From Coriaria nepalensis (taxonomy: Eukaryota > Streptophyta > Magnoliopsida > Cucurbitales > Coriariaceae): a stretch of 64,000 bases of DNA. A program made the translations under genes and the position numbers. The notes beneath the pieces are model-generated. The model saw nothing but the letters and a program-made list of their open reading frames with translations, was not told the DNA's origin and did no database searches. Shown here in pieces: positions 34,201 to 60,612 of the stretch. Within the stretch, counting starts at the first letter, position 1. Every line of letters begins with the position of its first letter. The stretch lies in NCBI GenBank assembly GCA_027186245.1, contig CP114483.1:18186220-18250219 (forward strand), read 5' to 3'.

Positions 34201-35968
34201 TGTTTAGTGTTAATGTCATATTATTGCATCTCTTTTACTCATTAAATCATTCTAAATCACTTCGGACGAAATTCACCTTTTGAACATGACTTTCGTGCAT
34301 AACTTGCAGTTGATCTATTGAAGGGAACTATACATTTACTTAGTGTTAAAATCATGTCATTGAGGCTCTTCTAGTCATTAAATGATTATAAATGAATTCG
34401 AACGAATTATATTTTTGCCCTTCAAACATGATTTTCTTACATAACCTGCAATTAATCTATTGAATACAACAATGCATTATTTTAGCCTTAAAGAGCATAT
34501 CATTTCGTCTTTTCAGATCATTAAATTGTTTGAAAGCACTTCACACTAATTCTATTTTCGCATTTAAAACACGACTTTCATGCATAACTTGCAATTGATC
34601 TACTGAAGGCAACTATGCATTGTTTTAGTGTTATAGTCATATTATTGCATCTTTTTTACTCATTAAATAATTCTAAATCACTTCAGACGAAATTTGCGTT
34701 TTAAACATGACTTTCGTGCATAACTTGTAGTTGATCTATTGAAGGAAACTATACATTTACTTATCCTTAAAATCATGTCATTGAGGCTCTTCTAGTCATT
34801 AAATCATTTTAAATGAATTTGAACGAATTATGTTTTTCCCTTCAAACATGATTTTCTTACATAACCTGCAATTAATCTATTGAATACAACAATGCATTAT
34901 TTTAGCCTTAAAGAGCATATCATTCAGTCTTCTCAGATCATTAAATTATTTGAAAGCACTTCGAACTAATTCCATTTTCGCATTTAAAACACGACTTTCA
35001 TGCATAACTTGCAATTGATCTACTGAAGGCAACTATGCGTTTGTTTAGTGTTAATGTCATATTATTGCATCTCTTTTACTCATTAAATCATTCTAAATCA
35101 CTTCGGACGAAATTCACCTTTTGAACATGACTTTCGTGCATAACTTGCAGTTGATCTATTGAAGGGAACTATACATTTACTTAGTGTTAAAATCATGTCA
35201 TTGAGGCTCTTCTAGTCATTAAATGATTATAAATGAATTCGAACGAATTATATTTTTGCCCTTCAAACATGATTTTCTTACATAACCTGCAATTAATCTA
35301 TTGAATACAACAATGCATTATTTTAGCCTTAAAGAGCATATCATTTCGTCTTTTCAGATCATTAAATTGTTTGAAAGCACTTCACACTAATTCTATTTTC
35401 GCATTTAAAACACGACTTTCATGCATAACTTGCAATTGATCTACTGAAGGCAACTATGCATTGTTTTAGTGTTATAGTCATATTATTGAATCTTTTTTAC
35501 TCATTAAATAATTCTAAATCACTTCAGACGAAATTCGCGTTTTAAACATGACTTTCGTGCATAACTTGCAGTTGATCTATTGAAGGAAACTATACATTTA
35601 CTTATCCTTAAAATCATGTCATTGAGGCTCTTCTAGTCATTAAATGATTATAAATGAATTCGAACGAATTATATTTTTGCCCTTCAAACATGATTTTCTT
35701 ACATAACCTGCAATTAATCTATTGAATACAACAATGCATTATTTTAGCCTTAAAGAGCATATCATTCAGTCTTTTCAGATCATTAAATTGTTTGAAAGCA
35801 CTTCACACTAATTCTATTTTCGCATTTAAAACACGACTTTCATGCATAACTTGCAATTGATCTACTGAAGGCAACTATGCATTGTTTTAGTGTTATAGTC
35901 ATATTATTGCATCTTTTTTACTCATTAAATAATTCTAAATCACTACAGACGAAATTCGCGTTTTAAAC

Positions 35969-37656
35969 ATGACTTTCGTGCATAACTTGGAGTTGATCTA
36001 TTGAAGGAAACTATACATTTACTTATCCTTAAAATCATGTCATTGAGGCTCTTCTAGTCATTAAATCATTTTAAATGAATTTGAACGAATTATGTTTTTC
36101 CCTTCAAACATGATTTTCTTACATAACCTGCAATTAATCTATTGAATACCACAATGCATTATTTTAGCCTTAAAGTGCATATCATTCAGTCTTTTCAGAT
36201 CATTAAATTTTTTGGAAGCACTTCGAACTAATTCTATTTTTGCATTTAAAACACGACTTTCATGCATAACTTGCAATTGATCTACTGAAGGCAACTAACT
36301 AAGCATTGTTTTAGTGTTAAAGTCATATTATTGCATCTTTTTTACTCATTAAATAATTCTAAATCACTTCAGACGAAATTCGCGTTTTAAACATGAGTTT
36401 CGTGCATAACTTGTATTTGATCTATTGAAGGAAACTATACATTTACTTATCCTTAAAATCATGTCATTGAGGCTCTTCTAGTCATTAAATCATTTTAAAT
36501 GAATTTGAACGAATTATGTTTTTCCCTTCAAACATGATTTTCTTACATAACCTGCAATTAATCTATTGAATACAACAATGCATTATTTTAGCCTTAAAGA
36601 GCATATCATTTCGTCTTTTCAGATCATTAAATTGTTTGAAAGCACTTCACACTAATTCTATTTTCGCATTTAAAACACGACTTTCATGCATAACTTGCAA
36701 TTGATCTACTGAAGGCAACTATGCATTGTTTTAGTGTTATAGTCATATTATTGCATCTTTTTTACTCATTAAATAATTCTAAATCACTACAGACGAAATT
36801 CGCGTTTTAAACATGACTTTCGTGCATAACTTGGAGTTGATCTATTGAAGGAAACTATACATTTACTTATCCTTAAAATCATGTCATTGAGGCTCTTCTA
36901 GTCATTAAATCATTTTAAATGAATTTGAACGAATTATGTTTTTCCCTTCAAACATGATTTTCTTACATAACCTGCAATTAATCTATTGAATACCACAATG
37001 CATTATTTTAGCCTTAAAGTGCATATCATTCAGTCTTTTCAGATCATTAAATTTTTTGGAAGCACTTCGAACTAATTCTATTTTTGCATTTAAAACACGA
37101 CTTTCATGCATAACTTGCAATTGATCTACTGAAGGCAACTAACTAAGCATTGTTTTAGTGTTAAAGTCATATTATTGCATCTTTTTTACTCATTAAATAA
37201 TTCTAAATCACTTCAGACGAAATTCGCGTTTTAAACATGAGTTTCGTGCATAACTTGTATTTGATCTATTGAAGGAAACTATACATTTACTTATCCTTAA
37301 AATCATGTCATTGAGGCTCTTCTAGTCATTAAATCATTTTAAATGAATTTGAACGAATTATGTTTTTCCCTTCAAACATGATTTTCTTACATAACCTGCA
37401 ATTAATCTATTGAATACAACAATGCATTATTTTAGCCTTAAAGAGCATATCATTTCGTCTTTTCAGATCATTAAATTGTTTGAAAGCACTTCACACTAAT
37501 TCTATTTTCGCATTTAAAACACGACTTTCATGCATAACTTGCAATTGATCTACTGAAGGCAACTATGCATTGTTTTAGTGTTATAGTCATATTATTGCAT
37601 CTTTTTTACTCATTAAATAATTCTAAATCACTTCAGACGAAATTTGCGTTTTAAAC
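35969..37656 (+). repeat. Tandem duplication of an 844-bp two-unit block
   Basis: Copies are 35969-36812 and 36813-37656. Both have an A with GCATAACTTGGAGTTG, a B with GAATACCACAATGC and ATTTTTTGGAAGC, a C with the AACTAACTAAGC insertion, then a unit starting ATGAGTTTCGTG with GTATTTGATC. The same two-unit combination, in part, also occurs at about 33,440-34,280 and 38,500-39,340. Confidence 0.88.
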
Positions 37657-40182
37657 ATGACTTTCGTGCATAACTTGTAGTTGATCTATTGAAGGAAACT
37701 ATACATTTACTTATCCTTAAAATCATGTCATTGAGGCTCTTCTAGTCATTGAATCATTTTAAATGAATTTGAACGAATTATGTTTTTCCCTTCAAACATG
37801 ATTTTCTTACATAACCTGCAATTAATCTATTGAATACAACAATGCATTATTTTAGCCTTAAAGAGCATATCATTCAGTCTTCTCAGATCATTAAATTATT
37901 TGAAAGCACTTCGAACTAATTCCATTTTCGCATTTAAAACACGACTTTCATGCATAACTTGCAATTGATCTACTGAAGGCAACTATGCGTTTGTTTAGTG
38001 TTAATGTCATATTATTGCATCTCTTTTACTCATTAAATCATTCTAAATCACTTCGGACGAAATTCACCTTTTGAACATGACTTTCGTGCATAACTTGCAG
38101 TTGATCTATTGAAGGGAACTATACATTTACTTAGTGTTAAAATCATGTCATTGAGGCTCTTCTAGTCATTAAATGATTATAAATGAATTCGAACGAATTA
38201 TATTTTTGCCCTTCAAACATGATTTTCTTACATAACCTGCAATTAATCTATTGAATACAACAATGCATTATTTTAGCCTTAAAGAGCATATCATTTCGTC
38301 TTTTCAGATCATTAAATTGTTTGAAAGCACTTCACACTAATTCTATTTTCGCATTTAAAACACGACTTTCATGCATAACTTGCAATTGATCTACTGAAGG
38401 CAACTATGCATTGTTTTAGTGTTATAGTCATATTATTGAATCTTTTTTACTCATTAAATAATTCTAAATCACTTCAGACGAAATTCGCGTTTTAAACATG
38501 ACTTTCGTGCATAACTTGTAGTTGATCTATTGAAGGAAACTATACATTTACTTATCCTTAAAATCATGTCATTGAGGCTCTTCTAGTCATTAAATCATTT
38601 TAAATGAATTTGAACGAATTATGTTTTTCCCTTCAAACATGATTTTCTTACATAACCTGCAATTAATCTATTGAATACCACAATGCATTATTTTAGCCTT
38701 AAAGTGCATATCATTCAGTCTTTTCAGATCATTAAATTTTTTGGAAGCACTTCGAACTAATTCTATTTTTGCATTTAAAACACGACTTTCATGCATAACT
38801 TGCAATTGATCTACTGAAGGCAACTAACTAAGCATTGTTTTAGTGTTAAAGTCATATTATTGCATCTTTTTTACTCATTAAATAATTCTAAATCACTTCA
38901 GACGAAATTCGCGTTTTAAACATGAGTTTCGTGCATAACTTGTATTTGATCTATTGAAGGAAACTATACATTTACTTATCCTTAAAATTATGTCATTGAG
39001 GCTCTTCTAGTCATTAAATCATTTTAAATGAATTTGAACGAATTATGTTTTTCCCTTCAAACATGATTTTCTTAAATAACCTGCAATTAATCTATTGAAT
39101 ACAACAATGCATTATTTTAGCCTTAAAGAGCATATCATTCAGTCTTCTCAGATCATTAAATTATTTGAAAGCACTTCGAACTAATTCCATTTTCGCATTT
39201 AAAACACGACTTTCATGCATAACTTGCAATTGATCTACTGAAGGCAACTATGCGTTTGTTTAGTGTTAATGTCATATTATTGCATCTCTTTTACTCATTA
39301 AATCATTCTAAATCACTTCGGACGAAATTCACCTTTTGAACATGGCTTTCGTGCATAACTTGCAGTTGATCTATTGAAGGGAACTATACATTTACTTAGT
39401 GTTAAAATCATGTCATTGAGGCTCTTCTAGTCATTAAATGATTATAAATGAATTCGAACGAATTATATTTTTGCCCTTCAAACATGATTTTCTTACATAA
39501 CCTGCAATTAATCTATTGAATACAACAATGCATTATTTTAGCCTTAAAGAGCATATCATTCAGTCTTTTCAGATCATTAAATTGTTTGAAAGCACTTCAC
39601 ACTAATTCTATTTTCGCATTTAAAACACGACTTTCATGCATAACTTGCAATTGATCTACTGAAGGCAACTATGCATTGTTTTAGTGTTATAGTCATATTA
39701 TTGCATCTTTTTTACTCATTAAATAATTCTAAATCACTACAGACGAAATTCGCGTTTTAAACATGACTTTCGTGCATAACTTGGAGTTGATCTATTGAAG
39801 GAAACTATACATTTACTTATCCTTAAAATCATGTCATTGAGGCTCTTCTAGTCATTAAATCATTTTAAATGAATTTGAACGAATTATGTTTTTCCCTCCA
39901 AACATGATTTTCTAACATAACCTGCAATTAATCTATTGAATACAACAATGCATTATTTTAGCCTTAAAGTGCATATCATTCAGTCTTTTCAGATCATTAA
40001 ATTGTTTGAAAGCACTTCGAACTAATTCTATTTTCGCATTTAAAACACAACTTTAATGCATAACTTGCAATTGATCGACCGAAGGCAACTATGCATTTTT
40101 TTAGTGTTAAAGTCAGATGATTGCATCTCTTTTACTCATTATATCATTCTAAAGCACTTCATACGAAATTCACCTTTTGAAC

Positions 40183-43100
40183 ATGACTTTCGTGCATAAC
40201 TTCCAGTTGATCTATTGAAGGCAACTATGCATTTACTTAGCGTTAAAATCATGTCAATGAGGCTCTTCTAGTCATTAAATAATTATAAATGAATTCGAAC
40301 GAATTATATTTTTACCCTTCAAACATGATTTTCTAACATAACTTGCAATTAATCTATTGAAGACAACAATGCATTATTTTAGCCTTAAAGTGCATATCAT
40401 TCAGTCTTTTCAGATCATTAAATTTTTTGAAAGCACTTCGAACTAATTCTATTTTCGCATTTAAAACACAACTTTCATGCATAACTTGCAATTGATCGAC
40501 CGAAGGCAACTATGCATTTTTTTAGTGTTAAAGTCAGATGATTGCATCTCTTTTACTCATTATATCATTCTAAAGCACTTCATACGAAATTCACCTTTTG
40601 AACATGACTTTCGTGCATAACTTGCAGTTGATCTATTGAAGGCAACTATGCATTTACTTAGCGTTAAAATCATGTCAATGAGGCTCTTCTAGTCATTAAA
40701 TAATTATAAATGAATTCGAACGAATTATATTTTTACCCTTCAAACATGATTTTCTAACATAACTTGCAATTAATCTATTGAAGACAACAATGCATTATTT
40801 TAGCCTTAAAGAGCATATCATTCAGTCTTCTCAGATCATTAAATTATTTGAAAGCACTTCGAACTAATTCTATTTTTGCATTTAAAACACGAATTTCATG
40901 CATAACTTGCAATTGATCTACTGAAGGCAACTATGCGTTTTTTTAGTGTTAATGTCATATTATTGCATCTCTTTTACTCATTAAATCATTCTAAATCACT
41001 TCGGACGAAATTCACCTTTTGAACATGACTTTCGTGCATAACTTGCAGTTGATCTATTGAAGGAAACTATACATTTACTTATCCTTAAAATCATGTCATT
41101 GAGGCTCTTCTAGTCATTAAATGATTATAAATGAATTCGAACGAATTATATTTTTGCCCTTCAAACATGATTTTCTTACATAACCTGCAATTAATCTATT
41201 GAATACAACAATGCATTATTTTAGCCTTAAAGAGCATATCATTCAGTCTTTTCAGATCATTAAATTTGTTGAAAGCACTTCGAACTAATTCTATTTTCGC
41301 ATTTAAAACACGATTTTCATGCATAACTTGCAATTGATCTACTGAAGGCAACTATGCATTTTTTTTAGTGTTAAAGTCATATTATTGCATCTCTTTTACT
41401 CATTAAATCATTTTAATTCACTTCAGATGAAATTCACCTTTTAAACATGACTTTCGTGCATAACTTGCAATTGATATATTGAAGGAAACTATACATTGAC
41501 TTTGCGTTAAAATCATGTCATTGAGGCTCTTCTCGTCATTAAATCATTATAAATGATTTCGAACGAATTATATTTTTGCCCTTCAAACATGATTTTCTTA
41601 CATAACCTGCAGTTAATCTATTGAATACAACAATGCATTATTTTAGCCTTAAAGAGCATATCATTCAGTCTTTTCAGATCATTAAATTGTTTGAAAGCAC
41701 TTCAAACTAATTCTATTTTCGCATTTAAAACACGACTTTCATGCATAACTTGCAATTGATCTACTGAAGGCAACTATGCATTTTTTTAGTGTTAAAAGTC
41801 ATATTATTGCATCTCTTTTACTCACTAAATCATTTTAAATCACTTCAGATGAAATTCACCTTTTAAACATTACTTTCGTGCATAACTTGCAGTTGATCTA
41901 TTGAAGGAAACTATACATTTACTTAGTTTTAAAATCATGTCATTGAGGCTCTTCTAGTCATTAAATCATTATAAATGAATTCGAACGAATTATATTTTTA
42001 CCTTTCAAACATGATTTTCTTACATAACTTGCAATTAATCTATTGGAGACAACAATGCATTATTTTAGCCTTAAAGAGCATATCATGTAGTCTTTTGATA
42101 TCATTAAATTGTTTGAAAGCACTTCGAACCAATTCTATTTTTGCATTTAAAACACAACTTTCTTTCATAACTTGCAATTGATCTACTGAAGGCAACTATG
42201 CGTTGTTTTAGTGTTAAAGTCATATTATTGCATCTCCTTTACTCATTAAATCATTCTAAATCACTTTAGACGAAATTCGCATTTCAAACATGACTTTCGT
42301 GCATAACTTGCAGTTGATCTATTGAAGGCAACTATAAATTTACTTAGCCTTAAAACCATGTCATTGAGGCTCTTCTAGTCATTAAATCATTATAAATGAA
42401 TTCGAACGAATTATGTTTTTGCCCTTCAAACATGATTTTCTTACATAACCTGCAATTAATCTATTGAATACAACAATGCTTTATTTTAGCCTTAAAGTGC
42501 ATATCATTCAGTCTTCTCAGATCATTAAATTATTTGAAAGCACTTCGAACTAATTCTATTTTTGCATTTACAACACGACTTTCATGCATAATTCGCAACT
42601 GATCTACTGAAGGCAACTATGCGTTTTTTTAGTGTTAATGTCATATTATTGCATCTCTTTTACTCATTAAATCATTCTAAATCACTTCGGACGAAATTTA
42701 CCTTTTGAACATGACTTTCGTGCATAACTTGTAGTTGATCTACTGAAGGGAACTATACATTTACTTAGTGTTAAAATCATGTCATTGAGGCTCTTCTAGT
42801 CATTAAATGATTATAAATGAATTCGAACGAATTATATTTTTGCCCTTCAAACATGATTTTCTTACATAACCTGCAATTAATCTATTGAATACAACAATGC
42901 ATTATTTTAGCCTTAAAGAGCATATCATTCAGTCTTTTCAGATCATTAAATTGGTTGAAAGCACTTCGAACTAATTCTATTTTCGCATTTAAAACACGAC
43001 TTTCATGCATAACTTGCAATTGATCTACTGAAGGCAACTATGCATTTTTTTAGTGTTAAAAGTCATATTATTGCATCTCTTTTACTCACTAAATCATTTT

Positions 43101-46100
43101 AAATCACTTCAGATGAAATTCACCTTTTAAACATCACTTTTGTGCATAACTTGCAGTTGATCTATTGAAAGAAACTATACATTTACTTAGCGTTAAAATC
43201 ATGTCATTGAGGCTCTTCTAGTCATTAAATCATTATAAATGAATTCGAACGAATTATATTTTTACCTTTCAAACATGATTTTCTTACATAACTTGCAATT
43301 AATCTATTGGAGACAACAATGCATTATTTTAGCCTTAAAGAGCATATCATTCAGTCTTTTCAGATCATTAAATTGTTTGAAAGCACTTCAAACTAATTCT
43401 ATTTTCGCATTTAAAACACAACTTTCATGCATAACTTGCAATTGATCGACCGAAGGCAACTATGCATTTTTTTAGTGTTAAAGTCAGATGATTGCATCTC
43501 TTTTACTCATTATATCATTCTAAAGCACTTCATACGAAATTCACCTTTTGAACATGACTTTCGTGCATAACTTGCAGTTGATCTATTGAAGGCAACTATG
43601 CATTTACTTAGCGTTAAAATCATGTCAATGAGGCTCTTCTAGTCATTAAATAATTATAAATGAATTCGAACGAATTATATTTTTACCCTTCAAACATGAT
43701 TTTCTAACATAACTTGCAATTAATCTATTGAAGACAACAATGCATTATTTTAGCCTTAAAGAGCATATGATTCAGTCTTCTCAGATCATTAAATTATTTG
43801 AAAGCACTTCGAACTAATTCTATTTTTGCATTTAAAACACGAATTTCATGCATAACTTGCAATTGATCTACTGAAGGCAACTATGCGTTTTTTTAGTGTT
43901 AATGTCATATTATTGCATCTCTTTTACTCATTAAATCATTCTAAATCACTTCGGACGAAATTCACCTTTTGAACATGACTTTCGTGCATAACTTGCAGTT
44001 GATGTATTGAAGGAAACTATACATTGAGTTAGCGTTAAAATCATGTCATTGAGGCTCTTCTCGTCATGAAATCATTATAAATGATTTCGAACGAATATAT
44101 TTTTGCCCTTCAAACATGATTTTCTTACATAACCTGCAGTTAATCTATTGAATACAACAATGCATTATTTTAGCCTTAAAGAGCATATCATTCAGTCTTT
44201 TCAGATCATTAAATTGTTTGAAAGCACTTCAAACTAATTCTATTTTCGCATTTAAAACACGACTTTCATGCATAACTTGCAATTGATCTACCGAAGGCAA
44301 CTATGCATTTTTTTTAGTGTTAAAAGTCATATTATTGCATCTCTTTTACTCACTAAATCATTTTAAATCACTTCAGATGAAATTCACCTTTTAAACATCA
44401 CTTTCGTGCATAACTTGCAGTTGATGTATTGAAGGAAACTGTACATTTACTTAGCCTTAAAAGCATGTCATTGAGGCTCTTCTAGTCATTAAATCATTAT
44501 AAATGAATTCGAACGAATTATATTTTTACCTTTCAAACATGATTTTCTAACATAACTTGCAATTAATCTATTGGAGACAACAATGCATTATTTTAGCCTT
44601 AAAGAGCATATCATGCAGTCTTTTGATATCATTAAATTGTTTGAAAGCACTTCGAACCAATTCTATTTTTGTATTTAAAACACAACTTTCTTTCATAACT
44701 TGCAATTGATCTACTGAAGGCAACTATGCATTGTTTTAGTGTTAAAGTCATATTATTGCATCTCCTTTACTCATTAAATCATTCTAAATCACTTCCGATG
44801 AAATTCGTCTTTTAAACATGACTTTCGTGCATAACTTGCAGTTGATCTATTGAAGGCAACTATACATTTACTTAGCCATAAAATCATGTCATTGAGGCTC
44901 TACTAGTCATTAAATCATTATAAATGAATTCGAACGAATTATGTTTTTGCCCTTCAAACATGATTTTCTTAAATAACCTACAATTAATCTATTGAATACA
45001 ACAATGCATTATTTTAGCCTTCAAGAGCATATCATTCAGTCTTTTCAGATAATTAAATTGTTTGAAAGCACTTCGAACTAATTCTATTTTCGTATTTAAA
45101 ACATGACTTTCATGCATAACTTGCAATTGATCTACTAAAGACAACTATGCATTTTTTTAGTGTTAAAGTCGTATTATTGCATTTCTTTTACTCATTAAAT
45201 CATTCTAAATCACTTCGGATGAAATTCGCATTTTAAACATGACTTTCATGCATAACTTTCAGTTGATCTATTGAAGGCAACTATACATTTACTTATCCTT
45301 AAAATCATGTCATTGAGGGTCTTCTAGTCATTAAATCATTATAAATGAATTCGAACGAATTATATTTTTGCCCTTCAAACACGATTTTCTTACATAACTT
45401 ACAATTAATCTATTGAAGACAACAATGCATTATTTTAGCCTTAAATTGCATATCATTCAGTCTTTTCAGATCATTAAATTGTTTGAAAGCAGTACCAACT
45501 AATTCTATTTTTGCATTTAAAACACAATTTTCTTGCATAACTTGCAATTGATCTTTTGAAGGCAACTACCCATTTGTTTAGTGTTAAAGTCATATTATTG
45601 CATCTCTTTTACTCATTAAATCATTCTAAATCACTTCAAACGAAATTCGCCTTTTAAACATGATTTTCATGCATAACTTGCTGTTGATCTATTGAAGGCA
45701 ACTATACATTTACTTAGCCTTAAAATCATGTCATTGAGGCTCTTCTTGTCATTAAATCATTATAAATGAATTCGAACGAATTATATTTTTGCCCTTCAAA
45801 CATGATTTTCTTACATAACTTACAATTAATCTATTGAAGACAACAATGCATTATTTTAGCCTTAAAGAGCATATCATTCAGTCTTTTGATATCATTAAAT
45901 TGTTTGAAAGCACTTCGAACTAATTCTTTTTTTGCATAACTTGCAATTGAAGGCAACTATGCATTGTTTTAGTGTTAAAGTCATATTATTGCATCTCTCA
46001 TTAAATCATTCTAATTCACTTCAGAAAAAATTTGCCTTTTAAACATTACTTTCTTGCGTAACTTGCAGTTGATCTATTGAAGGCAACTATACATTTACTT

Positions 46101-46192
46101 AGCCTTAAAATCATGTCATTGAGCCTCTTCTAGTCATTAAATCATTATAAATGAATTCGAACGAATTATATTTTTGCCCTTCAAACATGATT
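40183..46192 (+). repeat. Left-arm domain next to the inversion
   Basis: A starts lie at 40183, 40604, 41025, 41447, 41869, 42290, 42711, 43133, 43554, 43975, 44397, 44818, 45239, 45660 and 46045. The unit at 43554 matches that at 40604 (spacing 2,950), both having a B ending in an ACGAATTTCATGC context. The units at 43975 and 44397 match those at 41447 and 41869 instead, so the pattern is a mosaic. From about 44,800 to the junction units carry more private substitutions and no long period is visible. Confidence 0.85.
45915..46005 (+). repeat. Decayed C monomer with three small deletions
   Basis: The unit starting at 45660 is 385 bp instead of 421. Three deletions account for the 36 missing bases: 22 bp at about 45,932-45,937 (between two TTGCAT copies), 8 bp at about 45,947-45,953 (between TTGA and CTGA) and 6 bp at about 45,994-46,000 (TCTCTTTTACTC reduced to TCTCTC). 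Each lies between short direct repeats. This is the last C monomer before the orientation switch. Confidence 0.85.
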
Positions 46193-46211
46193 GAAATCAT
46201 TATAATGATTG
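46187..46211. repeat. Array inversion junction with 16-bp perfect palindrome
   Basis: The last forward A monomer ends at 46186. A forward B monomer starts at 46187 (ATGATT) and stops after about six bases. The sequence then runs through the perfect palindrome AATCATTATAATGATT (46195-46210, centre between 46202 and 46203) and continues as an inverted B monomer, of which only about 95 of 143 bases remain (46203-46297). The left half, AAATCATTATA, matches a segment present in the A monomer just upstream (about 46140). This is consistent with fold-back or template switching at a short homology. A forward A (46045-46186) and an inverted A (46298-46438) flank a spacer of about 111 bp, but they are clearly diverged, roughly 80% similar by eye. 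An assembly misjoin is the alternative. Confidence 0.93.
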
Positions 46212-47280
46212 AATAGACAGACTGATATGCTTTTTAAAGCTAAAATAATGCATTGTTGTCTTCAATAGATTAATTGCAATTTATTTAATAAAATCATGTT
46301 TGAAGGGCAAAAATAGAATTCATTTGATTAATTTAGAATGATTTAATGACTTGAAGAGACTTAGTGACATGACTTAAAGGCTAAACAAATGCATTGTTGC
46401 CTTCCATAGATCAACTGCAAGTTATGCACGAAAGTCATGTTTGAAGGCTGAATTTCGTTCGTAGTGATTTAGAAAGATTTAATGACTAAAAGAGACGCAA
46501 TAATATGACTTTAAGGCTAAAAAAATGCATAGTTGCCTTCATTATATCAATTCCAAGTTATGCATGAAATTCGTGTCTTAAATGCAAAAATAGAATTGGT
46601 TCGAAGTGCTTCCAAACAATTTAATGGTATGAAAAGATTGAATGATATGCTTTTTCTGGCTAAAATAATGCATTGTTGTCTTCGACATATTAATTGCAAG
46701 TTATGTAAGAAAATCATGTTTGAAGGGCGAAAATAGAATTCGTTCGATTTAATTTAGGATTATTTAATGACTAGAAGAGACTCATCGACATAACTTTAAG
46801 GCTAAACAAATGCATTGTTGCCTTCAATAGATCAACAGCAAGTTATGCACGAAAGTCATGTTTAAAGGCCGAATTTTGTTCGAAGTGATTTAGAATGATT
46901 TACTGACTAAAAGACACGCAATAAGATGACTTTAAGGCTAAAAAAATGCATAGTTTCCTTTAATAGATCAATTGCAAGTTATGTATGAAAGTCGTGTCTT
47001 AAATGCAAAAATAGTATTGGTTCGAAGTGCTTCCAAACAATTTAATGATATGAAAAGACTGAATGATATGCTTTTGAAGGCTAAAATAATGCATTGTTGT
47101 CTTCAATAGATTAATTGCAAGTTATGTAAGAAAATCATGTTTGAAGGGCAAAAATAGAATTCATTTGACTAAATTTAGAATGATTTAACGATTAGAAGAG
47201 ACTCAGTGACATGACATTCAGGCTAAACAAATGCATTGCTGCCTTCAATAGATCAACTGCAAGTTATGCACGAAAGTCAT

Positions 47281-47559
47281 GTTTAAAGGCCGAATTTCGT
47301 TCGAAGTGATTTAGAATGATTTTCTGACTAAAAGACACGCAATAATATAACTTTAAGGCTAATAAAATGCATAGTTGCCTTCAATAGATCAGTTGCCAGT
47401 TATGTACGAAAGTCGTGTCTTAAATGCACAAATAGAATTGGTTCGAATTGCTTCCAAAGAATTGAATGATATGAAAAGACTGAATGATATACTTTTTAGG
47501 GCTAAAATAATGCATTGTTGTCATCAATAGATCAACTGCAAGTTATGCATGAAAGTCAA
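47281..47559 (-). repeat. 279-bp dimer: C' plus B/A hybrid monomer
   Basis: Read on +, C' is followed by a monomer that begins as B', changes in the conserved box (TTGTTGTCATCAATAGAT then CAACTGCAAG) to A', and ends GTCAAG where A' normally ends GTCATG. The same two marks, GTCGTC or GTCATC before the box and GTCAAG at the end, recur in all seven dimers (also 49244-49521, 58366-58644, 59491-59768, 61035-61313, 62159-62437, 62860-63137). The hybrid therefore most likely formed once and then spread. Confidence 0.88.
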
Positions 47560-49942
47560 GTTTAAAGGGTGAATTTCGTTTAAAGTGTGTTAGAATGATA
47601 TAATGACTAAAAAAAATGCAATAATATGACTTTTAGGCTAAAAAATGCATAGTTGCCTTCAATAGATCAATTGCAAGTTATGCATGAAAGTCGTGTTTTA
47701 AATGCAAAAATTGAATTGGTTCGAAGTGCTTTCAAACAATTTAATGATATGAAAAGACTGAGTGATATACTTTTTAATGCTAAAATAATTCATTGTTGTC
47801 TTGAATACATTAATTGCAAGTTATGTAAGAAAATAATGTTTGAAGGGCGAAAATAAAATTCGTTCGAATTAAATTAGAATGATTTAATGACTACAAGAGA
47901 CTCAGTGACATCACTTTAAAGGCTAAACAAATGCATTGATGCCTTCAATATATCAACTTCAAGTTATGCATGAAAGTCATGTTTAAGGGCCGAATTTCGT
48001 TCAAAGTGATTTAGAAAGATTTAGTGACTAAAAGAGATGCAATAATATGACTTTAAGCTTAAAAAAATGCATAGTTGCCTTCAATAGATCAATTGCAAGT
48101 TATGTATGAAAGTCGTGTCTTAAATGCACAAATAGAATTGGTTCGAAGTGCTTCCAAACAATTTAATGATATGAAAAGACTGAATGATATGCTTTTTAAG
48201 GCTAAAACAATGCATTGTTATCTTCAATAGATTAATTGCAAGTTATGTAAGAAAATCATGTTTGAAGGGCGAAAATAGAATTCATTCTACTTAATTTAGA
48301 ATGATTCAACGACTAGAAGAGACTCAGTGACATGACTTAAATGCTAAACAACTGCATTGTTGCCTTCAATAGATCAACTGCAAGTTATGCACGAAAGTCA
48401 TTTTTAAAGGCCGAATTTCATTCGAAGTGATTTAGAATGATTTATTGACTAAAAGAGACGCAAAAATATAACTTTAAGGCTAAAAAAATGCATAGTTGCC
48501 TTTTATAGATCAATTGCAAGTTATGCATGAAAGTCGTGTGTTAAATGCAAAAATAGAATTGGTTCGTTGTGCTTCCAACCAATTTTTTGATATGAAAAGA
48601 CTAAATGATATGCTTTTTATAGCTAAAATAATGCATTGTTGTCTTCAATATATTAATTGCAAGTTATGTAAGAAAATCATGTTTGAAGGGCGAAAATAGA
48701 ATTCGTTTGACTTAATTTAGAATGATTTAACGACTAGAAGAGACTCATTGAGATGACTTTAAGGCTAAAGAAATGCATTGTTGCCTTCAATAGATCAACT
48801 CCAAGTTATGCACGAAGGTCATGTTTAAAGGCCGAATTTACTTTGAAGTGATTTAGAATGATTTACTGACTAAAATAGATGCAAAAATATGACTTTAAGG
48901 CTAATAAAATGCATAGTTGCCTTCAATAAATCAATTGCAAGTTATGCATGAAAGTCGTGTCTTAAATGTACAAATAGAATTGGTTCAAAGTGCTTCCAAA
49001 CAATTCAATGATATGAAAAGACCAAATGATATGCATTTTATAGCTAAAATAATGCATTGTTGTCTTCAATAGATTAATTGCAAGTTATGTAAGAAAATCA
49101 TGTTTGAAGGGCAAAAATAGAATTCATTCGACTAAATTTATAATGATTTAACGACTAGAAAAGACTCATTGACATGATTTTAAGGCTAAACAAATGCATT
49201 GTTGCCTTCAATAGATCAACTGCAAGTTATGCATGAAAGTCATGTTTAAAGGACGAATTTCGTTCGAAGTGATTTAGAATGATTTACAGACTAAAAGAGA
49301 CGCAAAAATATGACTTTAAGGATAAAAAAATGCATAGTTGCCTTTAATAGATAATTGCAAGTTTTGTATGAAAGTCGTTTCTTAAATGCACAAAAAGAAT
49401 TGGTTCGGAGTGCTTCCAGAGAATTTAATGATATAAAAAGACTGAATGATATACTTTTTAAGGCTAAAATAATGCATTGTTGTCGTCAATAGATCAACTG
49501 CAAGTTATGCACGAAAGTCAAGTTTAAACGGTGAATTTCGTTTGAAGTGTGTTAGAATGATTTAGTGACTAAAGAAGATGCAATAATATGACTTTAAGGC
49601 TAAAAAAATGTATAGTTGCCTTCAAAAGATCTATTGCAAGTTATGCATGAAAGTCGTGTTTTAAACGCAAAGATGGAATTGGTTCGAGGTGCTGTCAAAC
49701 AATTTAATGATATGAAAAGACTTAGTGATATGCTTTTTAATGCTAAAATAATGCATTGTTGTCTTCAATAGATTAATTGCAAGCTATGTGATAACATCAT
49801 GTTTGAAGGGCAAAAATAGAATTGGTTTGAATTAATTTAGAATTATTTAATGACTCGAAGAGACTCAGTGACATGACTTAAAGGCTAAACAAATGCATTG
49901 TTGCCTTCAATAGATCAACTGCAAGTTATGCACGAAAGTCAT

Positions 49943-50507
49943 GTTTGAAGGCCGAATTTCGTTCGAAGTGATATAGAAAGATTTAATGACTAAAAGAGAT
50001 GCAATAATATGACTTTAATGCTAAAAAAAATGCATAGTTGCTTTCAATATATCAATTGCAAGTTATGTATGAAAGTCATGTCTTAAATGCACAAGTAGAA
50101 TTTGTTCGAGGTGCTTCCAAACCATTTAATGATATTAAAAGACTGAATGATATGCTTTTTAAGGCTAAAAAAATGCATAGTTGCCTTCTATAGATCAATT
50201 GCAAGTTATGCATGAAAGTCGTGTATTAAATGGAAAAATAGAATTGGTTCGTAGTGCTTCCAACCAATTTAATGATATGAAAAGACTGAATGATTTGCTT
50301 TTTATAGCTAAAATAATGGAATGTTGTCTTCAATATATTAATTGCAAGTTATGTAAGAAAATCATGTTTGAAGGGCGAAAATAGAATTCGTTTGACTTAA
50401 TTTAGAATGATTTAATGACTTTAAGAGACTCATTGACATGACTTTAAGGCTAAAGAAATGCGATGTTGCCTTCAGTAGATCAACTCCAATTTATGCACGA
50501 AGGTCAT
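49943..50507 (-). repeat. 565-bp tetramer with B/C hybrid monomer
   Basis: Read on +, the order is C', a B/C hybrid, B', A'. The hybrid runs as B' through GATATGCTTTTTAAGGCTAA and then continues as C' (AAATGCATAGTTGCC). The switch lies in the AAGGCTAAAA stretch directly beside the conserved box. A second B' then starts with GTATTAAATGG. The result is one extra monomer of about 144 bp. Confidence 0.85.
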
Positions 50508-51113
50508 GTTTAAAGGCCGAATTTACTTTGAAGTGATTTAAAATGATTTACTGACTAAAAGAGACGCAAAAATATGACTTTAAGGCTAATAAAATGCATA
50601 GTTGCCTTCAATAGATCAATTGCAAGTTATGCATGAAAGTCGTGGCTTAAATGTACAAATAGAATTGGTTCAAAGTGCTTCCAAACAATTTAATGATAAG
50701 AAAAGACGGAATGATATGATTTTTAAGGCTAAAATAATGCATTGTTGTCTTCAATAGATTAATTGCAAGCTATGTAATAAAATCATGTTTGAAGGGCAAA
50801 AATAGAATTCGTTTGAATTAATTTAGAATGATTTAATGACTCGAAGAGACTCAGTGACATGACTTAAAGGCTAAGCAAATGCATTGTTGCCTTCAATAGA
50901 TCAACTGCAAGTTATGCACGAAAGTCATGTTTGAAGGCCGAATTTCGTTCGAAGTGATATAGAAAGATTTAATGACTAAAAGAGACGCAATAATATGACT
51001 TTAAGGCTAAAAAAAATGCATACTTGCCTTCTATAGATCAATTGCAAGTTATGGATGAAAGTCGTGTATTAAATGCAAAAATAGAATTGGTTCGTAGTGC
51101 TTCCAACCAATTT

Positions 51114-51122
51114 AATGATATG
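51114..51122 (-). repeat. Site of 18-bp deletion between AATGATATG repeats
   Basis: B' normally has AATGATATG, then AAAAGACTG, then AATGATATG. Here only one AATGATATG copy remains. This is a simple loss between direct repeats and explains the 404-bp unit (50929-51332). Confidence 0.85.
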
Positions 51123-52316
51123 CTTTTTATAGCTAAAATAATGCAATGTTGTCTTCAATAGATTAATTGCAAGTTATGTAAGAAAATCATGTTTGAAGGG
51201 CGAAAATAGAATTCGTTTGACTTAATTTAGAATGATTTAATGACTAGAAGGGACTCATTGACATGACTTTAAGGCTAAAGAAATGCGATGTTGCCTTCAG
51301 TAGATCAACTCCAAGTTATGCACGAAGGTCATGTTGAAAGGCCGAGTTTACTTCGAAGTGATTTAGAATGATTTACTGACTAAAAGAGACACAAAAATAT
51401 GACTTGAAGGATACAAAAATGCATAGTTGCCTTTAATAGATCAATTGCAAGTTATGTATGAAAGTCGTGTCTTAAATGCACAAATAGTATTGGTTCGAAG
51501 TGCTTCCAAACAATTTAATGATATGAAAAGACGGAATGATTTGCTTTTTAAGGCTAAAATCGTGCATTGTTGTCTTCAATAGATTAATTGCAAGTTATTT
51601 AAGAAAATCATGTTTGAAGGGCAAAAATAGAATTCATTCGACTAAATTTAGAATGATTTAACGGCTAGAAGAGACTCAGTGACATGACTTTAAGGCTAAA
51701 CAAATGCATTGTTTCCCTCAATAGATCAACTGAAAGTTATGCACGAAAGGCATGTTTGAAGGCCAAATTTCGTTCGCAGTGATTTAGAATGATTTACTGA
51801 CTAAGAGAGAGGTAAAAATATGACTTTAAGGCTAAAAAAATGCATAGTTGCCTTCTATAGATCAATTGCAAGTTGTGCATGAAAGTCGTGTATTAAATGC
51901 AAAAATAGAATTGGTTCGTAGTGCTTCCAACCAATTTAATGATATGAAAAGACTGAATGATATCCTTTTTATAGCTAAAATAATGGATTGTTGTCTTCAA
52001 TAGATTAATTGCAGGTTATGTGAGAAAATCATGTTTGAAGGCCGAAAATAGAATTCGTTTGACTTAATTTAGAATGATTTAACGACGAGAAGAGACTCAT
52101 TGACTTGACTTTAAGGCTAAACAAATGAACTGTTGCCTTCAATAGATCAACTGCAAGTTATGTACGAAAGCCGTGTCTTAAATGCACAATAGAATTGGTT
52201 CGTAGTGCTTCCAAAGAATTTATTGATATGAAAAGACTGAATGATATTTTTTTTAAGGCTAAAGTAATGCATTGTTGTCGTCAATAGATCAACTGCAAGT
52301 TATGCACGAAGGTCAA

Positions 52317-52735
52317 GTTTAAAGGGCGAATTTCGTTTGAAGTGTGTTAGAATGATTTAATGACTGAAAAAGATGCAATAATATGACTTTAAGGCTAAAA
52401 AATGCATAGTTGCCTTCAATAGATCAATTGCAAGTTATGCATGAAAGTCGTATTTTAAATGCAAAGATGGAATTGGTTCGAAGTCCTGTTAAACAATTTA
52501 ATGATTGAAAAGACTGAATGATATGCTTTCTAAGGCTAAAATAATGCATTGTTGTCTTCAATAGATTAATTGCAAGTTATGTAAGAAAATAATGTTTGAA
52601 GGGCAAAAAAAGAATACGTTTGAATTAATTTAGAATGATTTAATGACTCGTAGAGACTCAGTGACATGACTTAAAGGCTAAACAAATGCATTGTTGTCGT
52701 CAATAGATCAACTGCAAGTTATGCACGAAAATCAA
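52317..52735 (-). repeat. Trimer whose A' carries the B/A-hybrid tail
   Basis: This unit has full C', B' and A', yet its A' ends with TTGTTGTCGTCAATAGATC and ATCAAG, the marks otherwise seen in B/A hybrids. The start of this A' (GGCTAAACAAATGCATTG) is normal A'. The tail therefore looks transferred by a short exchange or conversion tract that begins at the edge of the conserved box. Confidence 0.75.
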
Positions 52736-55290
52736 GTTTAAAGGGCGAATTTCGTTTGAAGTGTGTTAGAATGATTTAGTGACTAAAAAAGATGTAATAA
52801 TATGACTTTAAGGCTAAAAAACGCATAGTTGCCTTCAATAGATCAATTGCAAGTTATGCATGAAAGTCGCGTTTTAAATGCAAAAAGAGATATGGTTCGA
52901 AGTGCCTTCAAACAACTTAATGATTGAAAAGACTGAGTGATATTATTTTTAATGCTAAAATAATGCATTATTGTCTTCAATAAATTAATTGCAAGTTATG
53001 TAAGTAAATAATGTTTGAAGGGCGAAAATAGAATTCGCTCGACTTAATTTAGAATGATTTAACGACTAGAAGAAACTCATTGACATGACTTTAAGGCTAA
53101 ACAAATGCATTGTTGCCTTCAATAGATCAACTGCAAGTTATGCACCAAAGTCATCTTTAAAGGCCGAATTTCGTTCGAAGTGATTTAGAATGATTTGCTG
53201 ACTAAGAGACACGTAAAAATTTGACTTTAAGGCTAAAAAAATGCGTAGTTGCCTTGTATAGATCAATTGCAAGTTATGCATGACAGTCGTGTATTAAATG
53301 CAAAAATATAATTGGTTCGTAGTGCTTCCAACCAATTTAATGATATGAAAAGACTGAATGATATGCTTTTTATAGCTAAAATAATGCAATGTTGTCTTCA
53401 ATAGATTAATTGCAAGTTATGTAAGAAAATCATGTTTGAAGGGCGAAAATAGAATTCATTAGACTTAGTTTAGAATGATTTAATGACTAGAAGAGACTCA
53501 TTGACATGACTTTAAGGCTAAAAAAATTGATAGTTGCCTTCAATAGATCAATTGCAAGTTATGCATGACAATCGCATTTTAAATGCAAAAAGAAATATGG
53601 TTCGAAGTGCCTTCAAACAATTTAATGATTGAAAAGACTGAGTGATATGCTTTTTAATGGTAAAATAATCCATTGTTGTCGTCAATAGATCAACTGCAAG
53701 TTATGGATGAAAGTCAAGTTTAAAGGGTGAATTTCGTTCGAAGTGAGTTAGAATAATTTAATGACTAAAAAAGAATCAATAATATGACTTTAAGGCTAAA
53801 AAAATGCATAGTTGCCTTCAATAGATCAATTGTAAGTTATGCATGAAAGTCGTGTTTTAAATGCAAAAATGGAATTGGTTCGAAGTGCTTTCAAACAATT
53901 TAATGATATGAAAAGACTGAATGATATGCTTTTTAAGGCAAAAATAATGAATTGTTGTTTTTAATAGATTAATTGCAAGTTATGTAAGAAAATAATGTTT
54001 GAAGGGCGAAAATAGAATTCGTTAGAATTAATTTAGAATGATTTAATGACTAGAAGAGACTCAGTGACATGACTTTAAAGGCTAAACAATTGCATTGTTG
54101 CCTTCAATAGATCAACTTCAAGTTATGCACCAAAGTCATGTTTAAAGGCCGAATTTCGTTCGAAGTGATTTAGAATGATTTGCTGACTAAGAGAGACGTA
54201 AAAATATGACTTTAAGGCTAAAAAAATGCATAGTTGCCTTCTATAGATCAATTGCAAGTTATGCATGAAAGTCGTGTATTAAATGCAAAAATAGAATTAG
54301 TTCGTTGTGCTTCCAACGAATTTAATGATATGAAAAGACTGAATGATTTGCTTTTTATAGCTAAAATAATGCATTGCTGTCTTCAATAGATTAATTGCAA
54401 GTTATATAAGAAAATCATGTTTGAAGGGCGAAAATAGAATTCGTTTGACTTAATTTAGAATGATTTAATGACTAGAAGAGACTCATTGACTTGACTTTAA
54501 GGCTAAAGAAATGCGTTGTTGCCTTCAATAGATCAACTGCAAGTTATGCACGAAAGTCATGTTTAAAGGCCGAAATTCGTTCGAAGTGATTTAGACTGAT
54601 TTACTGACTAAAAGAGACGCAAAAATATGACTTTAAGGATAAAAAAATGCATAGTTGCCTTCAATAGATCAATTGCAAGTTATGTATGAAAGTCGTGTCT
54701 TAAATGCACAAATAGTATTGGTTCGAAGTGTTTCCAAACAATTTAATGATATGAAAACACGGAATCATATGCTTTTTCAGGCTAAAATAATGCATTGTTC
54801 TCTTCAATAGATTAATTGCAAGTTATGTAAGAAAATCATGTTTGAAGGGAAAAAATAGAATTCATTCGACTAAATTTAGAATGATTTAACGACTAGAAGA
54901 GACTCAGTGACATGATTTTAAGGATAAACAAATGCATTGTTTCCCTCAATAGATCAACTGCAAGTTATGCACGAAAGGCATGATTGAAGGCCGAATTTCG
55001 TTCGAAGTGATTTAGAATGATATTTTGATTAAAAAAGAGACAAAAATACGACTGTAAGGCTAAAAAAATGCATAGTTGCCTTCTATAGATCAATTGCAAG
55101 TTATGCATGAAAGTCGTGTATTAAATGCAAAAATATAATTGGTTAGTAGTGCTTCCAACAAATTTAATGATATGAAAAGACTGAATGATATCCTTTTTAT
55201 AGCTAAAATAATGGATTGTTGTCTTCAATAGATTAATTGCAAGTTATGTAAGAAAATCATGTTTGAAGGCCGAAAATAGAATTCGTTTGA

Positions 55291-55300
55291 CTTAATAACG
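55291..55300 (-). repeat. Site of 12-bp deletion in an A/C hybrid monomer
   Basis: CTTAATAACG stands where sister units have CTTAATTTAGAATGATTTAA followed by CG. It accounts for the tetramer length of 552 instead of 563 bp. Confidence 0.75.
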
Positions 55301-57456
55301 ACGAGAAGAGACTCATTGACTTGACTTTAAGGCTAAACAAATGAATTGTTGCCTTCAATAGATCAACTGCAAGTTATGTACGAAAGCCGTGTCTTAAATG
55401 CACAAATAGAATTGGTTCGTAGTGCTTCCAAAGAATTTATTGATATGAAAAGACTGAATGATATTTTTTTTAAGGCTAAAATAATGCATTGTTGTCGTCA
55501 ATAGATCAACTGCAAGTTATGCACGAAGGTCAAGTTTAAAGGGCGAATTTCGTTTGAAGTGTGTTAGAATGATTTAATGACTAAAAAAGATGCAATAATA
55601 TGACTTTAAGGCTAAAAAATGCATAGTTGCCTTCAATAGATCAATTGCAAGTTATGCATGAAAGTCGCGTTTTAAATGCAAAAAGAGATATGGTTCGAAG
55701 TGCCTTCAAACAATTTAATGATTGAAAAGACTGAGTGATATGCTTTTTAATGCTAAAATAATGCATTGTTGTCTTCAATAAATTAATTGCAAGTTATGTA
55801 AGAAAATAATGTTTAAAGGGCGAAAATAGAGTTCGTTCGACTGAATTTAGAATGATTTAACGACTAGAAGAGACTCATTGACATGACTTTAAGGCTAAAC
55901 AAATGCATTGTTGCCTTCAATAGATCAACTTCAAGTTATGCACCAAAGTCATGTTTAAAGGCCGAATTTCGTTCGAAGTGATTTAGAATGATTTGCTGAC
56001 TAAGAGAGAGGTAAAAATATGACTTTAAAGCTAAAAAAATGCATAGTTGCCTTCTATAGATCAATTGCAAGTTATGCATGAAAGTCGTGTATTAAATGCA
56101 AAAATAGAATTGGTTCGTAGTGCTTCCAACCAATTTAATGATATGAAAAGACTGAATGACATGCTTTTTATAGCTAAAATAATGCATTGTTGTCTTCAAT
56201 AGATTAATCGCAAGTTATGTAAGAAAATCATGTTTGAAGGGCGAAAATAGAATTCGTTTCACTTAATTTAGAATGATTTAACGACTAGAAGAGACTCATT
56301 GATTTGACTTTAAGGCTAAACAAATGCATTGCTGCCTTCAATAGATCAACTGCAAGTTATGCAGGAAAGTCATGTTTAAAGGCCGAATTTCATTCGAAGT
56401 GATTTAGAATGATTTACTGACTAAAAAAGACGTAAAAATATGACTTTAAGGCTTAAAAAATGCATAATTGCCTTCAATAGATCAATTGCAAGTTATGCAT
56501 GAAAGTCGCTTTTTAAATGCAAAAAGAGATATGGTTCGAAGTGCCTTCAAACAATTTAATGATTGAAAAGACTGAGTGATATGCTTTTTAATGCTAAAAT
56601 AATGCATTGTTGTCTTCAATAGATTAATTCCAAGCTATGTAACAAAATCATGTTTGAAGGCCAAAAATAGAATTCGTTTGAATTAATTTAGAATGATTTA
56701 ATGACTCGAAGAGACTTAGTGACATGACTTAAAAGCTAAACAAATGCATTGTTGCCTTCAATAGATCAATTGCAAGTTATGCACGAAAGTCGTGTTTTAA
56801 ATGCAAAAATGGAATTGGTTCGAAGTGCTTTCAAACAATTTAATGATATGAAAAGACTGAATGATATGCTTTTTAAGGCAAAAATAATGAATTGTTGTTT
56901 TTAATAGATTAATTGCAAGTTATGTAAGAAAATAATGTTTGAAGGGCGAAAATAGAATTCGTTAGAATTAATTTAGAATGATTTAATGACTAGAAGAGAC
57001 TCAGTGACATGACTTTAAAGGCTAAACAATTGCATTGTTGCCTTCAATAGATCAACTTCAAGTTATGCACCAAAGTCATGTTTAAAGGCCGAATTTCGTT
57101 CGAAGTGATTTAGAAAGATTTAATGACTAAAAGAGACGCAATAATATGACTTTAAGGCTAAAAAAATGCATAGTTGCCTTCTATAGATCAATTGCAAGTT
57201 ATGCATGAAAGTCGTGTATTAAATGCAAAAATATAATTGGTTCGTAGTGCTTCCAGCAAATTTAATGATATGAAAAGACTGAATGATATCCTTTTTATAG
57301 CTAAAATAATGGATTGTTGTCTTCAATAGATTAATTGCAAGTTATGTAAGAAAATCATGTTTGAAGGCCGAAAATAGAATTCGTTTGACTTAATTTAGAA
57401 TGATTTAACGACGAGAAGAGACTCATTGACTTGACTTTAAGGCTAAACAAATGAAT

Positions 57457-57498
57457 TGTTGCCTTCAATAGATCAACTGTTGCCTTCAATAGATCAAC
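57457..57498 (-). repeat. 21-bp tandem duplication inside an A' box
   Basis: TGTTGCCTTCAATAGATC followed by AAC occurs twice in direct succession (57457-57477 and 57478-57498), lengthening this unit to 442 bp. It lies within the conserved box and is the longest local insertion I found in the window. Confidence 0.9.
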
Positions 57499-60190
57499 TG
57501 CAAGTTATGCATGAAAGTCATGTTTAAAGGCCGAAATTCGTTCGTAGTGATTTAGAATGATTTACTGATTAAAAGAGATGCAAAAATATGACTTTAAGGA
57601 TAAAAAAATGCATAGTTGCCTTTAATAGATCAATTGCAAGTTATGTATGAAAGTCGTGTCTTAAATGCACAAATAGTATTGGTTCGAAGTGCTTCCAAAC
57701 AATTTAATGATATGAAAAGGCGGAATGATATGCTTTTTAAGGCTAAAATAATGCATCGTTGTCTTCAATATATTAATTGCAAGTTATGTAAGAAAATCAT
57801 GTTTGAAGGGCAAAAATAGAATTCATTCGACTAAATTTAGAATCATTTAATGACTAGAAGAGACTCAGTGACATGACTTTAAAGGCTAAACAATTGCATT
57901 GTTGCCTTCAATATATCAACTGCAAGTTATGCACGAATGTCATGTTTAAAGGCCGAATTTCGTTCGAAGTGATTTAGAAAGATTTAATGACTAAAAGAGA
58001 CGCAATAATATTACTTTAGGGCTAAAAAAATGCATAGTTGCCTTCAATAGATCAATTGCAAGTTATGCATGAAAGTCATGTCTTAAATGCACAAATATTA
58101 TTAGTTCGAAGTGCTTTGAAACAATTTAATGATATGAAAAGACTGAATGATATGCTTTCTATGGCTAAAATAATGCATTGTTGTCTTCAATAGATTAATT
58201 GCAAGTTATGTAAGAAAATCATGTTTGAAGGGCGAAAATAGAATTCATTCTACTTAATTTAGAATGATTTAATGACTAGAAGAGACTCAGTGCCATGACT
58301 TTAAAGGCTAAACAATTGCATTGCTCCCTTCAACATATCAACTGCAAGTTATGCACGAAAATCATGTTTAAAGGCTGAAATACATTCGAAATGATTTAGA
58401 AAGATTTAATGACTAAAAGAGACGCAATAATATGACTTTAAGGCTAAAAAAAATGCATAGTTGCCTTCAATAGATCAATTGAAAGTTATGCATGAAAGTC
58501 GCATTTTAAATGCAAAAAGAGATATAGTTCGAAATGCCTTCAAACAATTTAATGATTCAAAAGACTGAGTGATATGCTTTTTAATGGTAAAATAATCCAT
58601 TGTTGTCGTCAATAGATCAACTGCAAGTTATGGACGAAAGTCAAGTTTAAAGGGCGAATTTCGTTCGAAGTGAATTAGAATGATTTAATGACTAAAAAAG
58701 ATTCAATAATAATGAGTTTAACGCTAAAAAAATGCATAGTTGCCTTCACTAGATCAATTCTAAGTTATGCATTAAAGTCGTGTTTTAAATGCAAAAATGG
58801 AATTGGTTCGAAGTGCTTTCAAACAATTTAATGATATGAAAACAATGAGTGATATGCTTTTTAAGGCTAAAATAATGCATTGTTGTTTTTAATAGATTAA
58901 TTGCAAGTTATGTAAGAAAATAATGTTTGAAGGGCGAAAATAGAATTCGTTAGAATTAATTTAGAATGATTTAATGACTAGAGGAGACTCAGTGACATGA
59001 CTTTAAAGGCTAAACAATTGCATTGTTGCGTTCAATATACGAACTGCAAGTTATGCACGAAAGTCATGTTTAAAGGCCGAATTTCGTTCGAAGTGATTTA
59101 GAAAGATTTAATGACTAAATGAGACGTAATAATATTACTTTAAGGCTAAACAAAATGCATAGTTGCCTTCAATAGATCAATTGCAAGTTATGCATGAAAG
59201 TCGTGTCTTAAATGCACAAATAGAATTGGTTCGAAGTGCTTCGAAACAATTTAATGATATGAAAAGACTGAATGATATGCTTTTTATGGGTAAAATAATG
59301 CATTGTTGTCTTCAATAGATTAATTGCAAGTTATGTAAGAAAATCATGTTTGAAGGGCAAAAATAGAATTCATTCTACTTAATTTAGAATGATTTCATGA
59401 CTAGAAGAGACTCAGTGACATGACTTTAAAGGCTAAACAAATGCATTGTTGCCTTCAATATATCAACTGCAAGTTATGCACGAAAGTCATGTTTAAAGGC
59501 CGAATTTCATTCGAAGTGATTTAGAAAGATTTAATGACTAAAAGAGACGCAATAATATTACTTTAGGGCTAAAAAAATGCATAGTTGCCTTCAATAGATC
59601 AATTGCAAATTATGCATGAAAGTCGCATTTTAAATGCAAAAAGAAATATGGTTCGAAGTGCCTTCAAACAATATAATGATTGAAAAGACTGAGTGATATG
59701 CTCTTTCATGGTAAAATAATCCATTGTTGTCATCAATAGATCAACTGCAAGTTATGGACGAAAGTCAAGTTTAAAGGGCGAATTTCGTTCGAAGTGAGTT
59801 AGAATGATTTAATGACTAAAAAAGAATCAATAATATGACTTTAAGGCTAAAAAAATGCATAGTTGCCTTCAATAGATCAATTGTAAGTTATGCATGAAAG
59901 TCGTGTTTCAAATGCAAAAATAGAATTGGTTCGAAGCGCTTCCAAACAATTTAATGATATGAAAAGACTGAATGATATGCTTTTTAAGGCTAAAATAATG
60001 CATTGTTGTTTTTAATAGATTAATTGCAAGTTATGTAAGAAAATAATGTTTGAAGGGCGAAAATAGAATTCATTATACTTAATTTAGAATCATTTAATGA
60101 CTAGAAGAGACTCAGTGACATGACTTTAAAGGCTAAACAATTGCATTGTTGCCTTCAATATATCAACTGCAAGTTATGCACGAAAGTCAT

Positions 60191-60612
60191 GTTTAAAGGC
60201 CGAATTTCGTTCAAAGTGATTTAGAAAGATTTAATGACTAAAAGAGACGCAATAATATTACTTTAGGGCTAAAAAAATGCATAGTTGCCTTCAATAGATC
60301 AATTGCAAGTTATGCATGAAAGTCATGTCTTAAATGCACAAATAGAATTAGTTCGAAGTGCTTTGAAACAATTTAATGATATGAAAAGACTGAATGATAT
60401 TCTTTTTATGGCTAAAATAATGCATTGTTGTCTTCAATAGATTAATTGCAAGTTATGTAAGAAAATCATGTTTGAAGGGCGAAAATAGAATTCATTCTAC
60501 TTAATTTAGAATGATTTAATGACTAGAAGAGACTCAGTGACATGACTTTAAAGGCTAAACAATTGCATTGTTGCCTTCAACATATCAACTGCAAGTTATG
60601 CACGAAAGTCAT
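60191..60612 (-). repeat. Reference right-arm trimer (422 bp)
   Basis: Read on +, C' is 60191-60326 (136 bp), B' 60327-60469 (143 bp) and A' 60470-60612 (143 bp). A' is one base longer than in the left arm (GACTTTAAAGGC). The unit shows the right-arm marks CGGCCTTTAAAC in C, GAGTCTC in A and ATTCTATTTTCGCCC in A when turned to the left-arm strand. Confidence 0.9.

Follow-up and report, generated by a model that had tools for sequence, protein, structure and literature searches.

The division of satellite arrays into subfamilies and the decay of their edges have long called for an explanation. The question is raised by a locus of Coriaria nepalensis, in which one satellite changes its orientation: what joined the two arrays, and what became of them afterwards? 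The window analysed here, a stretch of 64 kb (C3:18186220-18250219), consists wholly of a single AT-rich satellite with a 421-bp repeat. This higher-order repeat comprises three ~140-bp monomers, A (142 bp), B (143 bp) and C (136 bp), as cut at CATAAC, with a mutual likeness of 75-78%. All 19 samples (600 bp each) from 12.5-20.7 Mb of C3 are A-B-C satellite as well, and the host structure of the junction is a megabase-scale plant satellite. With 100 kb fetched on either side, the surroundings of the junction amount to 264 kb (C3:18086220-18350219). This sequence contains no N, and at 2-kb resolution the satellite is uninterrupted and no inserted transposable element is visible across it. A search of prokaryote genome and viral collections gave no matches to the satellite, and no description of the satellite or the junction was found among the open-licence papers listed, including by sequence or repeat size.

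Orientation switch and anatomy of the seam

The decomposition of the window into 459 segments revealed one switch only, with the + orientation running from 1 to about 46192 and the - orientation from about 46203 to 64000, and the sign of the GC skew reverses at the switch. The sequence-only reading, which had placed a single flip of the window at a short palindrome, was borne out in this respect. The flip is also the sole one within the 264 kb: the left array (L+) reads contiguously and N-free for 146 kb leftward of the junction, and the right array (R-) for 118 kb rightward. The same satellite is thus found in opposite orientations in continuous sequence (0 N in 264 kb), as at an inversion boundary of a satellite array. 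A call of A+ at 57492 (18 bp, 70% identity) was rejected as a flip; it adjoins a local duplication of 21 bp. This tandem duplication, TGTTGCCTTCAATAGATCAAC, lies within the R- array at 57457-57500 of the window. The features of the junction are listed in the table.

Features of the arrays and of the seam between them, in coordinates of the window
Feature	Position	Strand	Description
Left array (L+)	1..46192	+	421-bp A-B-C higher-order repeat
Decayed left edge	45814..46192	+	last B, last C, truncated last A
9-bp direct repeat ATGATTGAA	46187..46195 and 46205-46213	first copy +	second copy 18 bp on
Scar GAAATCATTA	46193..46202		~10 bp between arrays
Perfect palindrome AATCATTATAATGATT	46195..46210		16 bp, unique in window
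Right array (R-)	46203..64000	-	same A-B-C repeat, more irregular
Truncated B monomer (stub)	46203..46285	-	~83 bp, opens right array

The last monomer of L+ is an A that breaks off near position 136 of its 142, with ...TTCAAACATGATT (46192). In the decayed edge the last B has 121 bp, and the last C has 122 bp and agrees with the consensus at 84.6%; the last 43 bases ahead of the scar have exact matches in several other L+ units. On the other side, the stub begins with TAATGATTGAA, which is also present in the R- B monomers at 52499, 53623, 55716, 56557 and 62343, and the right array is traceable back to 46203, or to 46201 if compared with the B- monomer 59672 (TATAATGATTGAA). It had been suggested earlier that stub B sequence remains on both sides of the switch. 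This holds for the right side and fails for the left one, where the array, cut at CATAAC, ends inside A.

The scar was tried as ordinary diverged B sequence of the R- array, and this found no support: the stub extended across the scar scored 70.0 against a mean of 69.9 in 300 shuffles (p = 0.55). The scar equals the A+ motif AAATCATTATAA apart from its first base, G, and its last 8 bases constitute the left half of the palindrome. As was found by comparison within the window, the best match to 46181-46215 is a segment of an A+ monomer at 44067-44086 (19 of 20 positions, one gap). The hexamer ATGATT is common to the L+ end and the start of the R- B monomer; with several possible templates for the ~10-bp scar, microhomology or polymerase-theta-type end joining is a candidate origin. 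ATGATT may also represent an inverted short match between the L+ end and the R- start, the loop of which is undefinable without mirror arms. The scar can be parsed in at least three ways. It may be a copy of the A motif, given the match at 44067-44086 and the near-palindrome described below; it may have been copied in inverted form from the R- end beside it; or it may derive from the 6-bp match at ATGATT and an insert that arose by slippage, as a copy of ATGATTGAA.

The palindrome reported earlier at the switch is indeed perfect, and among the perfect palindromes of the 64-kb window, where it has a single copy, it is the longest. It is composed of the last 8 scar bases and TAATGATT from the right array, and a match to its right part is also present in native R- B monomers (TAATGATTGAA). 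The palindrome was found at four places in the 316-Mb genome, the other three being 3-kb loci without the satellite anchor word. By itself the palindrome is ordinary, since first-order Markov sequence of the same make-up contains on average 3.5 perfect palindromes of at least 16 bp per 64 kb (30 simulations). Its presence at the seam is mildly unusual, because the chance for random joins is only 0.3-2%: a seam-spanning palindrome of at least 16 bp arose in 0.28% of 200,000 random L+/R- joins, and a palindrome no more than 15 bp from the seam was found in 1274 of 59550 joins sharing 4 bp (2.1%), 730 of 42259 sharing 6 bp (1.7%) and 113 of 22730 sharing 7 bp (0.5%).

One half of the palindrome had been said to be present in every A monomer. 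The counts contradict this, with AATCATTA occurring in 40 of 111 A+ monomers and AATCATTATAA in 36 of them, and each in 1 of 37 A- monomers. The A+ monomers at 41542 and 44070 contain almost the whole palindrome with one extra base mid-way, and AAATCATTATAAATGATTT in both is a near-palindrome with a 3-base centre. Since a palindrome at a random seam is this infrequent and the observed one is nearly complete in two A+ monomers, the motif may have been used in some step, and the sequences are compatible with a possible template switch using the A motif at the seam. The small palindrome is probably a by-product of the seam and not its cause.

Two subfamilies and the mirror test

Orientation and subfamily change at one place. 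The consensus sequences of the L and R arrays differ at 29 sites (12 in A, 8 in B and 9 in C). Polarisation of these sites by the other monomers showed L to be changed at 15 and R at 6, with 8 ambiguous; at sites where all four others agree, the numbers are 11 and 5. As L is the changed one at more of the polarised sites, the R subfamily is probably closer to the ancestral state. The nearest relative of a monomer is in the same orientation in 1868 of 1869 cases in the 264 kb (after removal of 1 interval on the left and 6 on the right with lengths outside 125-155 bp) and in 453 of 454 cases in the window (short segments excluded, one of the 454 being a hybrid segment at the seam). The three full A monomers that stand last on the left are L at all 12 sites. 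In the assigned part of the terminal left A (46057-46161), 9 of the diagnostic sites are L, none is R, and 3 are other or missing. The first full monomers on the right carry R at 10/12 (A), 6/9 (C) and 8/8 (B) sites. R alleles were found in the left-edge B monomers at 44551 (5/8), 45393 (3/8) and 45814 (3/8), the average for left B monomers being 18%; the nearby B monomers at 44128 and 44972 have none. In the samples from elsewhere on C3, L and R both occur in either orientation, and many of these sampled orientations may be scaffold-dependent. The genome search with the L motif alone gave 646 forward and 338 reverse exact matches.

The monomers beside the seam are strongly diverged. Within 2 kb of it, the mean nearest-neighbour difference on the left is 5.0 (n = 11) against 0.83 (p = 1e-8), which is the highest value of 1028 blocks; on the right it is 7.1 (n = 14) against 1.7 (p = 2e-9), ranking 14 of 818 blocks, with other divergent places in the right arm too. 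If only the window is considered and the hybrid segment is omitted, the values are 6.5 against 0.95 on the left and 8.0 against 4.5 on the right. The last five full left units (43566, 43987, 44409, 44830 and 45251) demonstrate 1, 9, 15, 24 and 31 differences to the nearest unit, respectively. The rise of divergence at the seam is as expected for rarely renewed array edges.

Both arrays show signs of recent amplification. At positions 11560-19976 of the window, a block of 7 units (2946 bp) is present three times in tandem, the copies being almost identical (0-3 differences per 421-bp unit); this is a recent amplification inside the L+ array. The mean nearest-neighbour difference in the region C3:18272416-18292416, located 40-60 kb to the right of the junction in R-, is 0.04 per monomer, and this region appears to be the product of a recent duplication of large size in that array.

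A fold-back should leave mirror-image arms in one preferred register. At the window junction no mirror register stands out, the eight best alignments having 76-85% identity with arms of 2.1-2.9 kb. The highest mirror identity spans 1.3 kb only, and with 20-kb arms identity is ~78%, a value depressed, as in all long arm-to-arm alignments here, by the missing monomers of the R array. The junction does not look like a recent fold-back, and a recent fold-back at the palindrome was rejected as its cause. In the sequence-only reading the switch was explained by a fold-back or a template switch at the motif. The former alternative is left unsupported by the lack of mirror arms in one register and by different subfamilies reaching up to the seam, and the latter is possible, given the match at 44067-44086.

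A second flip, flip2 (L+|L-), served as a control. It was found by a junction similarity search, with + matches to C3:16452078 and - matches from 16453032, and is located at C3:16452793-16452814, 1.78 Mb from the window junction, with no N in 25 kb. Its arms are 99.77% identical over 2141 bp in one register, compared with 96-97% in other registers. The symmetry is 99.4-100% over six 500-bp steps (~3 kb), beyond which the register does not continue without gaps; the preferred register has 97.3% across 12 kb, against 96.2-96.5% in the others. The loop is ~0.5 kb by hand calculation, and the scar comprises ~22 bp, pieces of which resemble, by eye, the neighbouring arm. Judging by the sequence of flip2, it seems that fold-back inversion happens in the A-B-C satellite.

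Six flips were localised on C3, and the window junction and flip2 are those in continuous sequence. The four others (C3:17850408, 17654789, 15924971 and 16705830) all lie at runs of 99-100 N and are probably scaffold joins whose orientation is unsettled in the assembly; seven further apparent flips are implied between samples only. The picture of C3 as a patchwork of many real flips was dropped, as all four bisected flips proved to be N runs, and the orientation of the satellite on C3 may be largely unsettled in the assembly. The L+ block would span ~382 kb from 17850508, its left end being the N run 17850408-17850507, with contiguous reading from 18086220 only and samples up to 17.90 Mb. The runs of N at four of the six localised flips are a warning that what looks like a flip in an assembly of this kind may be an unsettled join.

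Origin of the junction

The junction is likely to be a real and old inversion boundary, at which oppositely oriented array ends were joined by break repair or template switching and the arms were then homogenised separately. A double-strand break would have occurred in the array, and repair over very short homology (ATGATT or ATT), through end joining or a template switch, would have attached the broken end to that of an array with the opposite orientation. This would have left the ~10-bp scar, copied from nearby sequence, perhaps an A monomer, with the palindrome arising from the scar. Afterwards, unequal exchange and break-induced copying would have been confined to each arm, since exchange in register is impossible between units that face opposite ways. 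With exchange between the arms blocked, the arms would have drifted into different subfamilies and the seam-side units would have decayed like array edges.

A different origin for an equally real boundary is an ancient fold-back, in which a broken end folded on the inverted short match and was copied outward, the mirror being erased later by homogenisation of each arm. We consider this unlikely, though it has points in its favour. The anatomy of flip2 on the same chromosome is that of a fold-back which loses its symmetry after ~3 kb, and human fold-back junctions have inverted matches of 2-8 bp (13 cases) and insertions (five) (PMC3907307). The monomer phases at the window junction (A 136 to B 80) permit a loop of 335 bp modulo 421 by hand calculation, but any join fits some loop length modulo 421. 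Against this origin, no mirror register is left and the arms belong to different subfamilies. An extended version, for which we see a limited chance, places both flips in one series: flips arise as fold-backs, block exchange between the arms and lose the mirror, and the arms become separate subfamilies, so that flip2 would be a young stage and the window junction an old one. If this is true, orientation flips are birthplaces of satellite subfamilies, and one chromosome holds both stages.

An assembly misjoin of two unrelated contigs of the same satellite is improbable. It would agree with the N runs at all four other localised flips, which make the orientation of the assembly often unreliable, and with the finding of the full 221-bp junction once in the genome, among the 40 of 2840 candidates that were scored. 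However, the 264 kb surrounding the seam are free of N, and with opposite orientations and few shared bases there would be no long overlap to join on. The divergence rises toward the seam from both sides, which is unexpected for a random point in a homogeneous array, and hairpin chimeric reads would yield perfect mirrors, which are absent. There is very little to commend a functional, selected inversion site, with the diverged monomers and the palindrome as a centromere structure. This reading would follow by analogy the proposal made for Tribolium madens, in whose arrays diverged monomers are found at conserved sites of inversion (PMC13081366). Those sites recur thousands of times nearly unchanged, whereas the junction described here was found once, and flip2, the other N-free flip, carries a different scar.

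Comparison with known inversions of satellites

The inversion sites of T. madens TmSat1/TmSat2, named 'macro-dyad symmetries', have 98-99% identity, with flips at a degenerate monomer and arms measuring from several kb up to tens of kb, as at the window junction (PMC13081366). The T. madens sites join arms of the same satellite and are recurrent, while the window junction joins two subfamilies. Its palindrome is present in the satellite once, according to an exact search, and the 221-bp junction once among 40 of 2840 candidates. Primate alpha-satellite likewise contains large inverted blocks and distinct evolutionary layers in one satellite region (PMC11062924); those inversions were validated by reads and several haplotypes.

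Fold-back inverted duplications of the human genome (PMC3907307) share with flip2 mirror arms, a spacer and a short scar, although the ~0.5-kb loop of flip2 is slightly below the shortest one reported there, 766 bp. The window junction differs from them in having neither mirror arms nor a definable spacer. Among plants, monomer identity in Brachypodium is lower beside inserted elements (PMC10910784), and in poplar one centromeric satellite is predominantly on one strand in each centromere (PMC12046899). The N-free, base-resolved seam and a young mirror flip on the same chromosome make it testable whether orientation alone stops homogenisation.

The ingredients of the proposed mechanism, namely microhomology repair, fold-backs, satellite inversions and diverged monomers at flips, are already in print. 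In maize CEN10, inversions and microhomology-mediated repair were described (PMC4806543; reviewed in PMC8997354). There an array of a centromeric satellite was split by an inversion, as a plant satellite array may have been in the window, and the repair was ascribed to short homology (PMC4806543). The maize inversion leaves two satellite clusters 2.6 Mb apart, whereas in the window satellite abuts satellite directly.
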